DNA from: Acidovorax temperans | GTDB taxonomy: Bacteria; Pseudomonadota; Gammaproteobacteria; Burkholderiales; Burkholderiaceae_C | DNA: 64,000 nucleotides | Assembly (NCBI RefSeq): GCF_006716905.1 | Contig: NZ_VFPV01000001.1 | Span: 301,501-365,500, forward strand | Reading direction: 5' to 3' | In this document: positions 28,637-54,230 of the stretch, one piece after another | How the letters are laid out: the number at the start of each line of letters is the position of its first letter | Numbering within the stretch: position 1 is the stretch's first letter | The notes under the pieces: generated by a model | Seen by the model: the letters and a program-made list of their open reading frames with translations, nothing else | Told to the model about the DNA's origin: nothing | Database searches by the model: none | Position numbers and translations under genes: made by a program

Positions 28637-28732
28637 GAAAATCGAAAAGCAAGCAAACAACCCGAGCCGGCTTCCCCGCCAGCATGTGGGAGACAAGGCT
28701 TCGCTGCCTCAAAGGGCGCGCGAAACCACCGT

Positions 28733-28943
28733 GTTGGCCGGTATCCGGGCTGGCGGAACGCCCTCCAATGCCTTCCCAGGCGCTTGTTCAAGGCGCCCAG
28801 TGGCTTGTGAATGGAGAGGGAATCGGATGATTCGTCCGCTGACCGTTGCGGGGGCAGCGCAGGCTGGGCGCACCCATGTTGGGTGAAACCTCCCTGCTTC
28901 CCGTTGAACTGCAGTCTGTGAACCAGCCTGCGAGCACCAACCG
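28733..28943 (-). promoter_or_regulatory. cobalamin (AdoCbl) riboswitch
   Basis: Read on the minus strand, the leader contains the conserved blocks in order: a GGTGCTCG start, AACGGGAAGCAGGGAGG, CCTGCGCTGCCCCCGCAACG, the B12-box element AAGCCACTGGGCGCC, GGGAAGGC, and the closing AGCCCGGATACCGGCC. This is the classic cobalamin riboswitch core. It lies about 100 bp before the btuB start, where it would turn down receptor and salvage gene expression when adenosylcobalamin is plentiful. Confidence 0.93.
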
Positions 28944-29004
28944 TCGGATTTTAAAACCTTGCGGCACCCCGTCCCAAAAAGACAACCCTACAATTGCGAT
29001 CTCT

Positions 29005-46874: not shown

Positions 46875-46915
46875 CATTCCCGACTGGTTTGCGGGCAGCC
46901 CAGCGGCGGCCCATT

Positions 46916-47054
46916 GGCAGAGCAATGCCTGCCGCCCCGCCTGGGCCACTTCAAGCGCACGCTGCCGCAGGTGTCGCTGAACTTCGTGCGCTACCAGCAC
47001 GCGCACGACTTTGCGACGCCGCACGAGTTCGACGCCGCCATCCAGTACGGCTAG
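46916..47054 (+). pseudogene. 3' end of an unidentified gene (remnant)
   Basis: A frame ending at the TAG at 47052 reads LPPRLGHFKRTLPQVSLNFV and continues RYQHAHDFATPHEFDAAIQ. It has the amino-acid balance of a real protein and a strongly GC-biased third position, but it has no start, no upstream domain and follows the uspA terminator directly. I read it as the tail of a gene whose front was lost, perhaps when the island to its right formed. I cannot name the family. Confidence 0.45.
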
Positions 47055-47262
47055 GGATGTCCTTACATGGACGTCTCCAGAAGAGCAAGATTCGGCGGCG
47101 TGAAGGTCTGAAGGGTTTGCAGTCTTACATACGGCCTGTCGGTGCAGGGTGTTCGTCCTGCTGGCCCTGATGGCATTCGCGGGTGAGGCTCCTGTCTGCA
47201 CATCGGGCTTGATGCCCTGTATCCCTATCGGATTGCCCCCACCCCGGTTTGACCTGTTGACC
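47055..47262. other. gap between gene remnant and IS element
   Basis: These 208 bp hold no ORF with coding character, no attC-like core pair and no recognised repeat. They mark the left edge of the accessory island. Confidence 0.4.
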
Positions 47263-47706: not shown

Positions 47707-49029
47707 CAGGCTGCTGAAATACTCCCCGCCGCAGCCCAGCCCACCTCCCCGCTTTTGACGGAACCGCCTGATTTTTCAGCAGTCTGGGCCTGTTTTGCTC
47801 GTTTTTGAGCCCTTTTCTTCGCCCTTTACACCCCGCTGGCACCCTGCAGACGCACCTGTCCCAAGGTGCGCATGCGCGTGAGGTTGTACGCAGCCATGTT
47901 CAGCACAAACAACTGGTCGACCTTTTGCAGTCCGCGCACCATCACTTGCCGGATGCTGCCGATCATCTTGGCCCAGCCAAAGCCTTGTTCGATCAGCTTT
48001 CTCTTTTGCTGGGAGATGGCGTAGCCTTCGCTGTTTGCAATCGCGTCAGGAACTGCCGACTGGCGCCCCGACTTGTTCTGCGCTACATGGGGCAGCACGT
48101 TCATCTCTTGCAGCGCGTCGATGAACTCCCTGGCGTCGTAACCCTTGTCTGCGCCCAGCGTGATCGTGATGGGGTCATCGCCGGGCAGTGCCTGTCGCGC
48201 ATCGTTGATCATGGCCTTGGCCGCTTCGCGCTCTGCATATCCGTCGGCCTGTGTGACCACGGCGCTGACCACCAGCCCGTGGCGGTTGTCGGTGAGTGTG
48301 TGGCCCATGAAGCGCAACTCACTGGCCGTCTTGCCCTTGCGGTACAGCCTTGCATCCGCGTCCGTTGTGGACTCGTGGGTGTCGTTGCTGCGCTTTTGGT
48401 CTTTGAAGTTCCCCGCGTCGGTATCGTCGTCGCCCTGGCGGTCTTTGCGCACAAAACTCTTGTGGCCCGCCCAGGCCTGGATCAGGGTGCCATCCACGCT
48501 GAAGTGCTCGCCCGAGAGCAGTTCCTGCTCCTGGGCTTGTTGCACGATCTGATTGAAGAACTCGATGACCGCATCGTGCTCGATCAGGCGTTCGCGGTTC
48601 TTGCTGAAGACGGTGGGCACCCAAACGGCATCGTCCATGGCCAGGCCAATGAACCAGCGAAACAGAAGGTTGTACTGGGTCTGCTCCATGAGCTGGCGCT
48701 CCGAGCGCACGCTGTAGAGCACCTGGATGAGCATGGCGCGCAGCAGCTTCTCGGGGGCAATGCTGGGGCGCCCGCCCTTGATGTCGGCCGCATACATCTG
48801 GGCAAACAGATCGTCCATCTTCTGCAGGGCCTTGTTGACCATGATGCGGATCACCCGCAGGGGGTGATCAAGGGGCACGAAGTCATCGAGATGGCGCATC
48901 GTGAACAGGCTCTCGGTGAAGGTGTCGGCTCCGCGCATGGATGGCTCGTCTGTCTGGTCAGTGGGGGGCTTGATTGTCGCGGCTGGGCGGCTGTCGCGGA
49001 CTGTCGGTGGGGAGTATTTCAGCAGCCTG
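47707..49029 (-). mobile_element. second IS5-family element, inserted in the first
   Basis: The 1323-bp element is bounded by inverted repeats beginning CAGGCTGCTGAAATACTCCC and is flanked by a 4-bp target duplication, CTAG, at 47703-47706 and 49030-49033. That YTAR-type duplication is typical of IS5-family members. It carries one intact transposase gene. The clean ends and duplication show an insertion that has not decayed. Confidence 0.93.
47826..48938 (-). CDS. IS5-family transposase (DUF772 + DDE)
   Basis: The 370-residue transposase begins MRGADTFTESLFTMRHLDDF. It has the DUF772-type N-terminal domain (GGRPSIAPEKLLRAMLIQVL and RSERQLMEQTQYNLLFRWFI), a DDE domain with FSVDGTLIQAW and TLGADKGYDAREF, and ends with a region containing RKLIEQGFGWAKMIG, which holds the final glutamate. 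It is full length with no frame break, so the element may still be mobile. Confidence 0.93.
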   Translation of the reverse strand: MRGADTFTESLFTMRHLDDFVPLDHPLRVIRIMVNKALQKMDDLFAQMYAADIKGGRPSIAPEKLLRAMLIQVLYSVRSERQLMEQTQYNLLFRWFIGLAMDDAVWVPTVFSKNRERLIEHDAVIEFFNQIVQQAQEQELLSGEHFSVDGTLIQAWAGHKSFVRKDRQGDDDTDAGNFKDQKRSNDTHESTTDADARLYRKGKTASELRFMGHTLTDNRHGLVVSAVVTQADGYAEREAAKAMINDARQALPGDDPITITLGADKGYDAREFIDALQEMNVLPHVAQNKSGRQSAVPDAIANSEGYAISQQKRKLIEQGFGWAKMIGSIRQVMVRGLQKVDQLFVLNMAAYNLTRMRTLGQVRLQGASGV

Positions 49030-49033
49030 CTAG

Positions 49034-49578
49034 CAGGTCTGCTGCCATGGGCGAGTCGCCCACTTCATTGGTTGTTACTGCGATGGCCCGAATCTGCAGT
49101 GTCTGGGCATCAATACCCAGATGCACCTTGCGCCACTGGCGGCGCCGCTGTGCGCCGTGCTTTTTGGTTTTCCACTCACCTTCGCCCAAGAACTTGATGC
49201 CCGTGGAGTCGGCCAGCATGTGCAAGCCTTTGTCACTTGCACGGTAGCGCACCTGCACATCCAAGCTCTTTTGCCTGCGACACACCGTGCTGTAGTCGGG
49301 CACTGGCCAATATCCAGGCCTGCCATACCCAATAGCGACTCAACCAGGCCCAGTGTCTGGCGCAAGGGCTGGCCAAACAAGCACTTGATGGTCAGGCAAA
49401 ACTGAATGGCCGCATCTGAGAATTTTTGGCAACGACCACGCTTGCCCGTGGGCTGAGCTAGCCACTGCATATCCCTATCGAGCCAAATGGTCAGCTCACC
49501 TCGCGCCTTCAACGCTGCGTTGTAAGCCTTCCAGTTCGTTGTGCGGTACTTAACCCGACCCCAGCTCGTCTCTCTCAT
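49034..49578 (-). pseudogene. IS5-family transposase, N-terminal part with frameshift
   Basis: Starting at 49578 the frame reads MRETSWGRVKYRTTNWKAYN, GKRGRCQKFSDAAIQFCLTI and LFGQPLRQTLGLVESLLGMA. Near 49300 it shifts: homologues read GLDWPVPDYSTVC, but two extra bases (AT) after GLD move the frame. The rest (PDYSTVCRRQKSLDVQVRY, DSTGIKFLGEGEW) is in another frame. So the gene was broken independently of the IS insertion. Confidence 0.85.
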
Positions 49579-49633: not shown

Positions 49634-49693
49634 TACTAACAGCCCAGATAAGCCGCCCGCCGTAGGCGGGTCGGCTTGAGCGCAAAGTTAGAC
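49634..49693 (-). other. attC site 1 (distal end of cassette array)
   Basis: Read on the minus strand it starts with the core GTCTAAC (49693-49687) and ends with GTTAGTA (49640-49634), enclosing inverted arms AGCCGACCCGCC and GGCGGGCGGCTT. The 60-bp layout is that of integron attC recombination sites. Confidence 0.85.
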
Positions 49694-49881
49694 CCGAAGG
49701 CCAAAAGGGAGCGCCCAGCCTTGAAGACGGGCGCAGCCCAAGAAAAACCGCTGGGCCACGAAAGCGGAGCAGCGCTGCAAGAAGGATAGCTGGTGGCGCT
49801 TGCTGCACAAGCGCTGGAGGCCCAAAAGGCTTGAAAGCCTTTGGAACAGGGCGGAGCGCTGAAATAAGTGGCTGCGCGCAT
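49636..49881 (-). CDS. cassette A ORF (81 aa), short-type cassette
   Basis: The frame opens 15 bp after the core of attC site 2 and encodes [20 protein letters not shown] through to a tail that is the translation of attC ([13 protein letters not shown]). It stops at the TAG of the attC core. About four fifths of its residues match those of the cassette F product. The composition (Ser, Ala, Pro, Arg rich) and the absence of a ribosome binding site leave open whether it is translated. No family is recognised. Its middle is encoded by a copy of the dispersed palindromic repeat. Confidence 0.45.
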
Positions 49882-49895
49882 AAAGCGGGTGATGG

Positions 49896-49954
49896 GACTA
49901 ACGCCCTGAGTTCAGCCGCCGCCGTAGGCGGTCGGCTGCGACGAATAGTTAGAC
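49896..49954 (-). other. attC site 2
   Basis: Minus strand: GTCTAAC at 49954-49948, arms GCAGCCGACCGCC and GGCGGCGGCTGA, and GTTAGTC at 49902-49896. Its arms differ from the other sites, and the cassette B frame ends at a TGA inside it. Confidence 0.87.
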
Positions 49955-50196
49955 CCGAAGGCCAGAAGGGAGCGCCCAAACTTAAAGACGGGTGCGGCCC
50001 AGGAAAAAGCGCTGGGCCTCGGGAGCGGCGCAACGCTGCAAGAATGATAGCTGGCAGCGCTTGCTGAACAAGGGCTAGAGGCCAAAAAGGCTTGAAACTT
50101 GCGCGGCGAATGCAGGCGAAGCCCGGCGCAGCGCCGAAACCCCAAAGGAGAAACCTGTGAGAAAGGCGAACCGCTGGAGTAAATGCTGGCCTGCAT
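49912..50196 (-). CDS. cassette B ORF (94 aa), long-type cassette
   Basis: The frame begins [20 protein letters not shown] and ends [13 protein letters not shown] at a TGA in the arm of attC site 2. It is the only small cassette whose frame does not reach the core TAG. It belongs to the longer of the two cassette types (about 318 bp), which has an extra segment ([17 protein letters not shown]) before the repeat-encoded part. No family is recognised. Confidence 0.4.
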
Positions 50197-50213
50197 AAAG
50201 CGGAATATGAAGG

Positions 50214-50273
50214 GACTAACGGCCAAGGTAAGCGGCTGGCTGAAAGCCAGTCCGCTTGAGCGCAGAGTTAGAC
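50214..50273 (-). other. attC site 3
   Basis: Minus strand: GTCTAAC at 50273-50267, arms CAAGCGGACTGGCT and AGCCAGCCGCTT, and GTTAGTC at 50220-50214. The hairpin tip differs from that of its neighbours while the pairing is kept. Confidence 0.88.
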
Positions 50274-50515
50274 CCGAAGGCCAAAAAGGGGCGCCCTGAC
50301 TTGAAGACGGGCACAACCCACGCAAAAGCGCTGGGCCACGGAAGCGGCGCAGCGCTGCAAGAAAGATAGCAGGTGGCGCTGGATAAACGGGCGCCAGAGG
50401 CCAAAAAGGCTTGAACCTGCCGAAGCGAACGCAGGCGAAGCCCCGCAGAGCGCCAAAACCCCCAAGGAGAAACCTTGGAGAAAGGCGAAGCGCTGGAGTT
50501 AATGGCGGCCTGCAT
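50216..50515 (-). CDS. cassette C ORF (99 aa), long-type cassette
   Basis: The frame begins [20 protein letters not shown] and ends in the attC-encoded tail [18 protein letters not shown], stopping at the TAG of the core site. It is clearly related to the cassette B and E products. The middle again comes from the palindromic repeat. Translation is unproven. Confidence 0.45.
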
Positions 50516-50532
50516 GACGCGGAATATGAAGG

Positions 50533-50592
50533 GACTAACGCCCAAGGTAAGCCGCCCGCCGTAGGCGGGTCGGCTTGAACGCCGGGTTAGAC
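50533..50592 (-). other. attC site 4
   Basis: Minus strand: GTCTAAC at 50592-50586, arms TTCAAGCCGACCCGCC and GGCGGGCGGCTTACC, and GTTAGTC at 50539-50533. Confidence 0.9.
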
Positions 50593-50780
50593 CCGAAAGC
50601 CAAAAGGGAGCGCCCGGACTTGAACAAGGGCGCAGCCCACGAAAAAGCGCTGGGCCACGAAAGCGGCGCAGCGCTGCAAGAATGATAGCTGGTGGCGCTT
50701 GCTGCAAAAGCGCTGGAGGCCAAAAAGGCTTCAAAGCCCCTGGAATAGGGCCGAGCGCTGGAATAAGTGGCTGTGCGCAT
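50535..50780 (-). CDS. cassette D ORF (81 aa), short-type cassette
   Basis: The frame begins [20 protein letters not shown] and ends in the attC-encoded tail [13 protein letters not shown] at the TAG of the core site. It is the same type as cassettes A and F (262-bp units). The frame is open upstream through attC site 5 into the next cassette, which is a consequence of the core TAG being in another frame there rather than evidence for a longer gene. Confidence 0.45.
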
Positions 50781-50794
50781 AAAGCGGGTAATGG

Positions 50795-50854
50795 GACTAA
50801 CGCCCAAGGTAAGCCGCCCGCAGTATGCGGGTCGGCTTGAACGCCGGGTTAGAC
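50795..50854 (-). other. attC site 5
   Basis: Minus strand: GTCTAAC at 50854-50848, arms TTCAAGCCGACCCGC and GCGGGCGGCTTACC, and GTTAGTC at 50801-50795. It differs from site 4 only near the hairpin tip. Confidence 0.9.
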
Positions 50855-51096
50855 CCGAAGGCCAAAAGGGAACGCCCTGACTTGAAGAAGGGCGCGGCCC
50901 ACGAAAAAGCGCTGCGCCACGGAAGCGGCGCAGCGCTGCAAGAATGATAGCTGGTGGCGCTTGACTGGCAAGCGCTAGGGGCCAAAAAGACTGAAAACTT
51001 GCCCAACGCATGCAGGCGAAGCCCAGCGGGCGGCCCAAACTCCAAAGGAGAAACCTTTGAGAAAGGCAAAACCTTGGAATTAATAACGGCCTGCAT
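50797..51096 (-). CDS. cassette E ORF (99 aa), long-type cassette
   Basis: The frame begins [20 protein letters not shown] and ends in the attC-encoded tail [13 protein letters not shown] at the TAG of the core site. It is a long-type cassette related to B and C, with more divergence in the first 20 residues. The repeat-encoded middle reads [13 protein letters not shown]. Translation is unproven. Confidence 0.45.
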
Positions 51097-51110
51097 AAAG
51101 CGGGTGATGG

Positions 51111-51170
51111 GACTAACGGCCAAGGTAAGCGGCCCGCAGAATGCGGGTCCGCTTGACCGCAGAGTTAGAC
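51111..51170 (-). other. attC site 6
   Basis: Minus strand: GTCTAAC at 51170-51164, arms CAAGCGGACCCGCA and TGCGGGCCGCTTACC, and GTTAGTC at 51117-51111. Confidence 0.9.
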
Positions 51171-51358
51171 CCGAAGGCCAAAAGGGGGCGCCCAGACTTG
51201 AAGACGGGCGCAGCCCAAGAAAAACCGCTGGGCCACGGAAGCGACGCAGCGCTGCAAGAAGGATAGCTGGTGGCGCTTGCTGCACAAGTGCTGGAGGCCA
51301 AAAAGGCTTGAAAGCCTTTGGAACAGGGCCGAGCGCTGGAACAGGTGGCTGCGCGCAT
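51113..51358 (-). CDS. cassette F ORF (81 aa), short-type cassette
   Basis: The frame begins [20 protein letters not shown] and ends in the attC-encoded tail [13 protein letters not shown] at the TAG of the core site. Its product is the closest relative of the cassette A product, although the two are the outermost of the six small cassettes. It is the first small cassette after the two-gene cassette, so it is the one nearest to the presumed promoter side. Confidence 0.45.
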
Positions 51359-51372
51359 GGAACGGGTGATGG

Positions 51373-51432
51373 GACTAACGTTGGAATTAACGGGCGCGCT
51401 TTAGCGCGTCCCTGTTGAATGATTTGTTAGCT
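51373..51432 (-). other. attC site 7 (of the two-gene cassette)
   Basis: Minus strand: AGCTAAC at 51432-51426, arms CAACAGGGACGCGCT and AGCGCGCCCGTTAATT, and GTTAGTC at 51379-51373. Its arms are unrelated in sequence to the other six sites but fold the same way, as expected for a cassette of different origin. Confidence 0.85.
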
Positions 51433-52114
51433 TTTCTTTGTGCTTAGCCCACCACATGTCTATCACCGCAGACATTTCAGGCTTAAATTCCGAGATGTAA
51501 TCATCAGCTACGCCCTGTGCCCCTGTGGCATGCGGTAGGACAACAACAGTCAGCTTCTCATACTGCTGAAAACCAAATCGGAAGCGCCTTCGTGGCTTAC
51601 CGTTGAAATATACGTCTTTTTGAAGCCACCTAGTTTCCCCTTTACGAGCGCCAAAGATGGATTCGACCCTAATGCTTAGGGCAGGTGAAGTAAATGCCCA
51701 AAGAAGTTCTCTGCCAAAGAAAAAAATTACGCTTGGTTTCAATGCTTCGCACGTCTGGAAGAATGACTCGTTATTCTCGATGCATGCCTGCTGAGTGTTT
51801 ATGCCATCCATATTGTTTGAGCATGTTTGTAGCCAGTTTGTTTGAACGATTGACCTTTCGAACGAACCTGCTCTCTCGCTACTTCGTGCAAGCTCGTAGC
51901 CCCATAGTGAAAACCAAGAAACAATACGATTCCTAAATGGATAGTCATTGACCTCGCCGTCTGAAAAAAAAGATTTATGCGGGTCTGCCCTGTTAATTCC
52001 GGCAGCATCTTGTCGCTCATCTTCTTTACTATAGCCGTGATTTAGGCCGCATAGTAGAAGTCCTCCTTCTCTATTTTCGCGGCCAATCAATGTGTGAACT
52101 GGCAATTCAATCAT
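51401..52114 (-). CDS. cassette G gene 2: unknown 237-aa protein, possibly of the uracil-DNA glycosylase fold
   Basis: The 237-residue soluble protein has no signal peptide or membrane segment. A glycine/asparagine turn after a hydrophobic strand ([17 protein letters not shown], residues 17-33), a hydrophobic strand [14 protein letters not shown] near 133 and [13 protein letters not shown] near 190 recall the motif order of the uracil-DNA glycosylase superfamily. I could not confirm membership. The C terminus (NHSTGTR) is encoded by attC site 7. It starts 4 bp after the upstream gene. The base composition is markedly more AT-rich than the surrounding genome, a sign of transfer. Confidence 0.75.
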
Positions 52115-52118
52115 CGAG

Positions 52119-52439
52119 TTACCAGAGCCTTAGAGCCAATTGACCAGCAACAACTAAAATTGGCGATCTTCCTATTTCGTAGGTATTAGATGAGTTAGCG
52201 CCGGTTTTTGGTTTTGCTTTTTGACCTTCAATAACCCATGTATTTGAGAAAGATGCTCCTGTTTTTGGCTTCAATTCTTTGCCATCCCAAATCCAAGTGT
52301 TTGAAAAGGACGCACCGGTTTTTGGTTTTATTTCCTTGCCATCAAAAACCCAAGTGTTTGAAAAAGAGGCGCCACTTTTTGGCTTGAGTTCTTTTCCGTC
52401 ACAGACCCAGTTGCTCGGTAGTTCAGTTTTATTCGCCAT
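52119..52439 (-). CDS. cassette G gene 1: 106-aa protein of four tandem repeats
   Basis: The protein consists mainly of four 19-residue repeats of the pattern NTWVFDGKEIKPKTGASFS, followed by a short hydrophobic tail. Each unit has an aromatic (W), an Asp-Gly turn and a KPKTGA turn, suggesting stacked beta hairpins. A good ribosome binding site (AAAGGAT) precedes the ATG. The 57-bp DNA period is obvious. The gene is AT-rich and sits first in the cassette, 4 bp before the 237-aa gene. I do not recognise a function. Confidence 0.78.
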   Translation of the reverse strand: MANKTELPSNWVCDGKELKPKSGASFSNTWVFDGKEIKPKTGASFSNTWIWDGKELKPKTGASFSNTWVIEGQKAKPKTGANSSNTYEIGRSPILVVAGQLALRLW

Positions 52440-52676
52440 AATAATATCCTTTGTTTATCTAGAAGCTAGGCTTCGATTCAGTGAAAGCTAACTAGATTTA
52501 GACGACAACAATAAAATTGACAGAAGTCTGATAACACATTTCAACACTGCGATTTCGGCGGCAGTATGCACCCCCTCGCCTTTTAGGCAAACCTAAAGTT
52601 TTGCGGATGGATGCGCATTCCGATGCTTGCGCTGCTCGGGCCCGCCAAGGCGGGCTTAGATGTCGGCCTCCAACCA
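52440..52676. other. gap at the promoter-side end of the cassette array
   Basis: On the minus strand a core-like GTTAGCT lies at 52492-52486 and would be the left edge of cassette G. The bases to its right hold a small palindrome (TTTAGG-CAAA-CCTAAA near 52585-52600). If an attI site existed it should be here, but no integrase gene or remnant is visible before matB ends at 52677. Confidence 0.5.
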
Positions 52677-54230
52677 TCAAGCAAACAACCCCTTGTACTG
52701 ATCCCGCAGCAGATTCTTCTGCACCTTCCCCATCGTGTTGCGCGGCAACTCCGCCACCACAAAGCACTTCTTGGGAATCTTGAAATTGGCCAGTTGCGAC
52801 TTGAGCTGGGCCACGATGGCGTCGGCATCCAGTTGGGCGCCGGGCTTGGCGATGACCACGGCCACGCCCACTTCGCCAAAGTCAGGGTGGGGCACGCCGA
52901 CCAGGGCGCTTTCGGCCACGCCGGGCATTTCGTTGATGTAGCCCTCGATCTCTGCGGGGTAGACGTTGTAGCCGCCGCTGATGATCAGGTCTTTGCTACG
53001 GCCCACGATGTGGACGTACCCGCGCTCGTCGACCTTGCCCACGTCGCCGGTTTTGAAGTAACCGTCCTTCGTGAACTCTTCCGCCGTCTTCTCGGGCATG
53101 CGCCAGTAGCCCTTGAACACGTTGGGGCCCTTGACCTGGATGCCGCCGATCTCGCCCACGGGCAGGTCTTTGCCGTCGTCGCCCTGCACGCGCAGGCTCA
53201 CGCCCGGCAGGGGGAAGCCGACGGTGCCGCCACGGCGTTCGTCCTGGCCTTGGTAGCGCTTGTCAGCGGCGTAGGGGTTGCTGGTGAGCATGATGGTTTC
53301 GCTCATGCCGTAGCGTTCGAGAATGGTGTGGCCGGTGCGTTGCTGCCATTCCTTGAAGGTTTCGATGAGCAGCGGTGCAGAGCCTGCGATGAACAGGCGC
53401 ATGTTCTTCACCGCATCCTTGTTCAAAGCCGCCTCAGCCAGCATGCGCACGTACAGCGTGGGCACACCCATGAACACAGTGGCGCGGGGCATGGCGGCGA
53501 TGACGGCCTTAGGGTCGAACTTGGGGCACCAGATCATCTTGCTGCCGTTGATGAGCGCACCGTGGATGGCGACGAACAGGCCGTGGACGTGGAAGATGGG
53601 CAAGGCGTGGATGAGCACGTCACCCTTCTTCCAACCCCAGTAGTCTTTGAGCATGACGGCGTTGCTGAGCATGTTGCCGTGCGTGAGCATGGCGCCCTTG
53701 CTGCGGCCGGTGGTGCCGCTGGTGTAGAGGATGGCGGCCAGGTCGTCGGCGCTGCGGGCCACTGCCTGGTGCTCGTCGCCGTGGTGGGCGGCACGATCGA
53801 GCAGGCTGCCGGTGCGGTCATCGCCCAGGGTGAACACATGCTGCGTGCCCAGGGTGAAGGCGATTTTGCTGACCCAGCCAAAGTTGCCGGGGCTGCACAC
53901 CACCACGGCGGGCTCGGCGTTGCCGATGAAGTATTCGATCTCGGCGCTTTGGTAGGCGGTGTTGAGTGGCAAGAACACGTAGCCCGCACGCAGCGTGGCC
54001 AGGTACAGGGCCATGGCTTCGACGGACTTTTCGACCTGCACGGCCACGCGGCTGCCTTCGGGCAGCTTGAGCGATGCGAGCAGGTTGGCGATGCGGGCGC
54101 TGGCGCGGTCCAGGTCGCGCCAGGTGTAGAACAGCGGGCTGCCGTCTGCGGCGGTGGTCTCGACGGCGGTGCTGTCCAGGTCAGACGGGAAGGCGGCGCG
54201 CAGGGCGCTGAAGAGGTTTTGGTTGCTCAT
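52677..54230 (-). CDS. matB: malonyl-CoA synthetase (malonate-CoA ligase)
   Basis: The 517-residue adenylate-forming enzyme joins malonate to CoA using ATP. It has the AMP-binding signature YTSGTTGRSKGAMLTHGN, the ERYGMSETIMLTSNPY region and the C-terminal GGYNVYPAEIEGYINEMPGV and LPRNTMGKVQKNLLR with the catalytic lysine. RYGMSE with MLTSNPY agrees with malonate-specific MatB. Its place in an operon with malonyl-CoA decarboxylase supports the substrate assignment. Confidence 0.93.
   Translation of the reverse strand: MSNQNLFSALRAAFPSDLDSTAVETTAADGSPLFYTWRDLDRASARIANLLASLKLPEGSRVAVQVEKSVEAMALYLATLRAGYVFLPLNTAYQSAEIEYFIGNAEPAVVVCSPGNFGWVSKIAFTLGTQHVFTLGDDRTGSLLDRAAHHGDEHQAVARSADDLAAILYTSGTTGRSKGAMLTHGNMLSNAVMLKDYWGWKKGDVLIHALPIFHVHGLFVAIHGALINGSKMIWCPKFDPKAVIAAMPRATVFMGVPTLYVRMLAEAALNKDAVKNMRLFIAGSAPLLIETFKEWQQRTGHTILERYGMSETIMLTSNPYAADKRYQGQDERRGGTVGFPLPGVSLRVQGDDGKDLPVGEIGGIQVKGPNVFKGYWRMPEKTAEEFTKDGYFKTGDVGKVDERGYVHIVGRSKDLIISGGYNVYPAEIEGYINEMPGVAESALVGVPHPDFGEVGVAVVIAKPGAQLDADAIVAQLKSQLANFKIPKKCFVVAELPRNTMGKVQKNLLRDQYKGLFA

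Follow-up and report, generated by a model that had tools for sequence, protein, structure and literature searches.

A cassette array beside matB in Acidovorax temperans keeps an attI site but has no integrase gene next to it and probably derives from a chromosomal integron

We analyzed a 64-kb stretch of Acidovorax temperans DNA (assembly GCF_006716905.1, contig NZ_VFPV01000001.1, hereafter the window; the source genome, of 4.65 Mb, is coded G000) that carries an array of seven integron-type gene cassettes and no integrase gene. The array is flanked on its attI side by matB, which, following a preliminary description of the locus, we take to encode a malonyl-CoA ligase, and at its distal end by overlapping frames that are presumably remnants of insertion sequence (IS) transposases (Table 1). 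The preliminary description had placed here seven attC sites of 59-60 bp on the minus strand, delimiting six cassettes of 262-319 bp and one of about 1.1 kb. All seven sites lie where it put them, and from W1 to W7 the cassettes measure 1113, 262, 316, 262, 319, 318 and 262 bp. The right end of the array, 52492, is assumed to be the G of the attI crossover G^TT.

Table 1 Features of the cassette array and its borders in window coordinates (ORF, open reading frame; aa, amino acids; R1, attC covariance model described in the text).
Feature	Position	Strand	Basis or score
IS transposase remnants (presumed), overlapping frames, distal array end	49019..49578	-	ORF list
attC site 1, distal array end	49634..49693	-	R1 40.4 bits, E 9.8e-8
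Cassette W7, 262 bp, DUF1010	49640..49901	-	
attC site 2	49896..49954	-	R1 38.3 bits, E 3.1e-7
Cassette W6, 318 bp, DUF1010, C-terminal end differs	49902..50219	-	
attC site 3	50214..50273	-	R1 48.7 bits
Cassette W5, 319 bp, DUF1010	50220..50538	-	
attC site 4	50533..50592	-	R1 51.8 bits
Cassette W4, 262 bp, DUF1010	50539..50800	-	
attC site 5	50795..50854	-	R1 48.3 bits
Cassette W3, 316 bp, DUF1010	50801..51116	-	
attC site 6	51111..51170	-	R1 51.9 bits
Cassette W2, 262 bp, DUF1010	51117..51378	-	
attC site 7, attI-proximal	51373..51432	-	R1 48.6 bits
Cassette W1, 1113 bp, two ORFs	51379..52491	-	
237-aa ORF in W1	51401..52114	-	one homologue (73% identity) UniRef 'Uracil-DNA glycosylase-like'
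106-aa ORF in W1, repeats of 57 nt (19 aa)	52119..52439	-	ORF list
attI core GTCGTCTAAATCTAGTTAG	52488..52506	-	18/19 bases as at intI-linked C3 attI
Palindrome TTTAGG-N4-CCTAAA	52582..52597	.	91 bp from attI core
intI relic, start codon and about two codons	52607..52615	+	comparison with relatives, direct sequence reading
matB (malonyl-CoA ligase, presumed), conserved flank on attI side	52677..54230	-	ORF list and relatives

To avoid circularity the attC sites were scored with a covariance model, R1, built from other taxa and trained on 26 attC sites (loci L033-L107), none of which belongs to the genus of the window by record title. R1 recovered exactly the seven sites, all on the minus strand, with 38-52 bits (E 1.6e-10 to 3.1e-7), and no eighth site in the window up to E = 5. 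Under this model of other taxa the sites display the conserved R and L boxes and the paired arms of attC. A motif script found six of the seven, missing site 7, and no Rfam family matched the array at gathering level. When R1 was run on the whole genome (E <= 1) we obtained at least 18 matches, the seven in the window and 11 in a single array on another contig of the source genome, C3; a separate scan of that array gave 12 sites. Because 150 of 4372 first-look candidates were scored in the genome-wide search and one of the 12 C3 sites was missed, single sites elsewhere are possible. One attC used as a DNA query returned the same two clusters plus four short chance matches, and another large attC cluster elsewhere in the genome is unlikely. 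The repeats are therefore not of a type scattered through the genome outside cassettes, a possibility that the preliminary description had raised against its own proposal.

The lack of a neighbouring integrase, also reported before, was borne out by a search of the source genome with the TIGR02249 profile (E <= 0.001). This search gave six matches, none of them near the array, and the nearest on the window contig lies more than 600 kb away and is below the family cut-off. A single protein exceeds the cut-off (C3:284305-285267, 467 bits, 344 aa from its ATG, without a stop). Its gene adjoins what we take to be a glycine dehydrogenase gene and heads its own attI and an array of 12 cassettes, and thus a complete integron. 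The genome-wide search for intI and attC that had been proposed hence ended in one intI over the cut-off and one second array, both on C3: the array in the window has no integrase in cis, but an integrase is present in the genome. As a separate observation, a second and more distant clade of integron integrases, 54-59% identical to the C3 IntI, occurs in the genomes G011, G022, G064, G062, G017, G012 and G026 (L197-L201, L203, L204).

On C3 the first cassette next to intI begins at GTCGTCTAATTCTAGTTAG, and in the window GTCGTCTAAATCTAGTTAG sits exactly at the start of the first cassette. A palindrome, TTTAGGTTTGCCTAAA, lies between intI and attI on C3 at 92 bp from the core and has its counterpart in the window. 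With up to one mismatch it occurs in the source genome only at these two attI sites; the reversed palindrome, used as a control, occurs at five places, so such 12-base motifs are not in themselves rare. By the likeness of core and palindrome to the intI-linked site, the array has an attI of its own. Next to it stands no intI, only what appears to be a start-codon relic. Nine bases after the palindrome the sequence reads ATG GAT GCG, the putative intI 5' leader with the start codon spanning 52582-52609, and the relic reads PKVLRMDA where the Comamonas IntI (L033) starts with PKILRMDA. Downstream comes the terminator region of matB (its hairpin read by eye), and the rest of intI is gone. The preliminary description was right that the nearest genes are not integrase genes; it overlooked the attI, the relic, the second integron and the DUF1010 genes.

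The comparison with relatives suggested in the preliminary description covered 35 same-genus neighbours, 16 of whose matB loci were retrieved, plus the locus of G070 with its attI. matB had a strong match in 34 of the 35 (E 1e-138 or better) and a weak one only in G026. Almost nothing lies between the universal-stress gene and matB in, for example, L145, L151, L152, L154 and L155, while L142, L147 and L150 have a stretch of 6-7 kb there, with a lysR gene at its matB end; in G018, G014 and G015 LysR adjoins matB without attI. An orphan attI module (palindrome, spacer and core) stands beside matB in the window genome and in G025, G011 and G070, and the sequence behind it is not the same in all: the window genome has seven cassettes there, G070 a 358-aa Shedu defence protein (SduA, 533 bits) and G011 a 367-aa protein without Pfam or NCBIfam match; the G025 contig ends 128 bases past the attI core. 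The attC model found no site in G070 or G011 at E <= 0.01, the weak candidates being one 17.5-bit match in G070 (E 0.076) and one long fold in G011. A start codon in the form ATG GAY occupies the same junction in all four matB orphans; the third codon of the relic differs in G011. The Shedu anti-phage gene of G070 (L196 8437-9513, minus strand) is the first behind the orphan attI; a defence gene may thus have been acquired at this docking site. On the far side of the array, a LysR gene that relatives carry in full near matB survives at window 46914-47057 as a piece (residues 105-152, 90% identity). Its remainder and, judging by G011 and G070, a transporter operon were apparently lost to insertion sequences.

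We then looked at attI sites in general. The core alone, with one mismatch tolerated, was found at 16 sites in 13 of 47 same-genus genomes. Eight are linked to intI, five of them over the family cut-off (G000 C3, G027 C33, G061, G065, G026) and three with a broken gene (G015, G029, G006). At the other eight (window, G025, G011, G070, G027 C17, G065 C1:1954148, G019, G062) no intI was found by tblastn at E <= 1e-8. Flank comparison assigns these eight orphans to four loci: matB (four genomes), one common to G027 and G065, and those of G019 and G062. When 299 genomes sampled from the family were searched for the exact module pattern, 12 sites came up, in 10 genomes from eight genera, and the reversed pattern used as a control gave none; the module pattern includes the palindrome and so has no independent word on its conservation. 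Eight of the 12 adjoin an intI over the cut-off (in G142 one with stops), two adjoin remnants (G093, G135), and at the last two (the window; G298 C1:2179956) there is no trace of intI beyond a start codon. G298 is a single contig, and its orphan, without intI at tblastn E <= 1e-3, heads 12 attC sites at 1.55 Mb from the only listed intI. Beyond matB, orphan attI sites thus stand at four further loci, in the genus of the window and one other genus. The locus common to G027 and G065 (L185, L190) adjoins a gene, read in L185, that we take to be 3-hydroxyisobutyrate-dehydrogenase-like. In G027 the retrieved stretch holds 18 attC sites plus a weak one behind this orphan; the intI-linked array of the same genome runs off its contig, and its size is therefore not comparable.

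Four genomes (the window genome, G027, G065 and G298) have both an orphan and a complete array. Within a genome, the two arrays share 325 bp at 99.7% in G027, 324 bp at 99.1% in G065 and 653 bp at 98.3% in G298. Cassettes are also shared across genomes, at 99.1% (complete arrays of G000 and G065), 98.8% (orphans of G027 and G065) and 98.5% (G027 orphan and G065 complete array), and common descent and transfer are possible sources. The arrays of G298 resemble those of the three others at no more than 92.0%, which makes G298 the cleanest case for action in trans.

We read the array as a sedentary chromosomal integron whose integrase gene was lost in situ, and give this a probability of roughly 0.8. 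A complete integron with intI, attI and cassettes would formerly have stood between matB and the lysR gene. A deletion starting near the third codon of intI and reaching the matB terminator region would then have removed the gene, leaving the intI 5' leader with the palindrome, the attI core and the cassettes. This loss would predate the split of the matB-orphan lineages, the array itself never having moved away from its integrase, and insertion sequences would later have cut its distal end. As the genome has a related integrase, on C3, and the attI cores differ at one position in 19, the orphan attI could in principle be served in trans. The sequence itself shows the attC sites, the attI, the start-codon relic, the second integron and the matching orphan site in relatives, whereas deletion as the route and service in trans are inferences. 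The preliminary description had offered a choice between a loose attC cluster and an array cut off from its integrase by rearrangement; the attI and the start codon kept beside the array narrow this choice in favour of a loss of intI in place. Several observations weigh against our reading. The relic consists of a start codon and one or two codons, which is close to chance level for one genome. In G025 (an assembly in 420 contigs) and G070 the orphan attI is kept with no intI at E <= 1e-60 in the genome. A promoter scan near the window attI gave no promoter-like match. The orphan and C3 arrays of the window genome share no stretch of at least 200 bp at 97% or more, and the best match, 91.9% over 272 bp, gives no sign of the recent exchange between them that we had looked for. 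Finally, because cassettes are shared at 98.5-99.1% across genomes, the sharing within G027 and G065 is no proof of action in trans.

The alternative that survives best, unlikely as we hold it to be, is that the orphan attI module spreads as a unit of its own and that intI never stood at these loci. The orphans occupy five loci without flank similarity (E <= 1e-10), with a clean edge beside the palindrome, and an intI fragment was found at none of the eight same-genus orphans nor at that of G298 (at the tblastn thresholds given above), although attI sites elsewhere (G015, G029, G006) do have an intI next to them that is frameshifted or truncated. At matB, however, the first two codons of intI are retained, and no end repeats or transposase turned up, although no systematic search for them was made. 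We consider it very improbable that the C3 integrase inserted the cassettes one by one at a secondary site (attG) where no integron had ever been. The genome does contain a full integrase, and off-site insertion at attG is described in PMC12444791. Such a junction would have no true attI, whereas here a full attI is present, with 18 of 19 core bases identical and the palindrome at 91 bp as at intI-linked sites; an intI start-codon relic adjoins it, and four genomes have the same attI in common. A collapsed or misjoined copy of the C3 array is scarcely credible, for although both arrays consist of similar repeats, which break assemblies, and the G025 contig does end soon after its attI core, the two arrays are at most 92% identical and the same attI stands in the same place in G011 (one contig) and G070 (two contigs).

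If the integrase gene was lost in place, the parts of attI that outlived it are of interest. At all 16 same-genus sites found by the core, the palindrome lies 90-92 bp from it, with perfect arms at 13 (8/8 orphans and 5/8 intI-linked sites). Among the four matB orphans, which on our reading diverged after the loss of intI, the arms are invariant at 12 of 12 positions against 35 of 76 in the spacer (Fisher p = 2.5e-4), and in one of the four all four central bases are changed and both arms kept. With five further orphans added the figures become 12/12 and 5/77, but these rows were picked by the palindrome, so that only the four-genome test is clean. Where intI-linked relatives carry the palindrome, about 10 bp separate it from the intI start that follows, and control of intI is therefore its likely first role. 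Two other ideas were dropped. The palindrome is not a universal part of attI at a fixed distance, because a pattern search found none in 20 of 33 intI relatives examined and because in Gallionellales-type relatives, which have it before intI, the gap to the core is longer. Nor is it a LexA box: CTG-N10-CAG occurs in none of 20 modules, and the palindrome is nowhere else in the genome (up to one mismatch).

A consensus test for the cassette promoter (Pc; TTGN3-N16-18-TAN3T) just upstream of the core was positive in 8/8 same-genus intI-linked modules and 0/9 orphans; in two orphans (L196, L188) the consensus matches at another point of the module, and in two intI-linked modules from other genera (L240, L241) it is missing from the position next to the core. 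From their sequences, the orphans seem to have lost the expression parts and kept the recombination parts, the palindrome being intact where intI and the cassette promoter are gone. One could go further and propose that attI in this clade is a two-part site, in which the crossover core and a 16-bp palindrome about 91 bp off would serve recombination in cis and not only intI control, and that arrays without an integrase would be satellites, which the genome's single complete integron would maintain and refill in trans; we regard this proposal as tentative and, taken as a whole, rather doubtful. Service in trans is plausible in the clade, where relatives provide the evidence, and is not visible in the window's own array, which looks dormant since the best match between the two arrays of its genome is only 92%.

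As to the cargo, W2 to W7 match DUF1010 (PF06231) with 100-124 bits against a Pfam cut-off of 25 bits, and the genome holds 16 full copies, six in the window and ten on C3. We first assumed that the short cassettes were non-coding and have mostly dropped this idea. The motif TTCGGGTCTAAC picked 31 copies out of the window, C3 and related loci, and all 31 have an uninterrupted frame between ATG and FGSN; the set leaves out members without the motif (e.g. stretches in L185 and L031). In 25 distinct copies of 83 codons no stop was observed, against 9.1 expected without constraint if the copies are independent. In 21 of 27 listed copies the gene stops at the TAG within the attC core GTTAG, so that attC encodes the C-terminus of the protein; of the other six, five have a different end and one runs into the edge of its locus. 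Omega in the coding frame is 0.64 (83-codon set) and 0.50 (65-codon set); it is 0.83-0.88 and 0.70-1.62 in the other forward frames and 0.69-0.94 and 0.58-1.38 in the reverse frames. In the larger set the third codon position does not vary most, and the codon evidence for coding is weak. That attC makes up the 3' end of the gene, and that some copies contain a dispersed repeat, leaves some doubt. The Pfam DUF1010 model (profile positions 42-66) gives 28.6 bits, against the cut-off of 25, on the bare attC of an unrelated cassette (C3:288158-288229), from which it follows that part of the family model is translated attC. The dispersed 32-bp element, AGCGCTT-N8-AAGCGCT-N4-GCTATNA, occurs at 42 places in the genome (reversed control 0); two of these lie within C3-array genes for DUF1010, part of which may therefore derive from an intergenic repeat.

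The 237-aa protein of W1 has 94 database homologues at E <= 0.001, the UniRef entry in Table 1 being the only one so named; it had no match in Pfam or NCBIfam at E <= 0.1 and one weak PADLOC match (E 0.014). The 106-aa repeat protein has one Pfam match below cut-off (PF05357, E 0.0029). Away from the array, a cobalamin riboswitch (28718-28956, minus strand, 78 bits) is the only Rfam match at gathering level in the window.

By its seven clustered attC sites, where two suffice, and the absence of an integron integrase nearby, the array is a cluster of attC sites lacking an integron integrase (CALIN), a form as common as complete integrons (2961 against 2760, according to PMC9024848). PMC12444791 reports that CALINs occur outside the intI locus in about half of Xanthomonas genomes, where their positions are relatively conserved, and it already describes loss of intI with the array kept, CALINs at fixed loci and the possibility that they are used in trans. 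In our searches of open-licence papers, no title or opening of an abstract spoke of an attI-bearing CALIN with an intI start relic or of such a palindrome; CALINs are already known, and what is new is an attI-bearing CALIN with the present attI layout. Whether CALINs are dead remains or working satellites could be tested directly at this locus, with an orphan attI, a near-identical partner attI and one intact integrase together in one cell. It also allows an attI outside class 1 integrons to be described down to a conserved distal palindrome that tools can search for, and its cassettes link DUF1010, a passenger of resistance integrons, to the chromosomal integrons of this bacterial family.

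The window array resembles other CALINs in its tandem attC sites, two or more, without adjoining intI, and differs from them in keeping a recognisable attI, an intI start-codon relic and the leader palindrome. In the ilvD-locus integrons of Xanthomonas with inactivated intI, too, an ancestral platform loses its integrase activity and the cassettes stay (PMC12444791), but the window genome has in addition a second, intact integron with a near-identical attI core. Delta-attI-type cassettes of mobile integrons likewise place attI sequence away from an attI-intI pair; as described in PMC12901181, they hold parts of attI within cassettes, whereas here a whole attI heads the array. The DUF1010 genes, finally, recall a cassette known from class 1 integrons (42 of 195 listed in PMC11616780). 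On an E. coli plasmid, DUF1010 is the ORF between dfrA12 and aadA2. We presume it to be the gene named gcuF or orfF. The order dfrA12-orfF-aadA2 is also given in one abstract. A plasmid collection searched with a C3 DUF1010 cassette, a relative of those in the window, gave 1837 matching records, 15 of them over at least 80% of the query, and the common plasmid form is 76% identical over 72% of it. Pfam family and cassette form are the same in both settings, and the window differs in having six tandem chromosomal copies.

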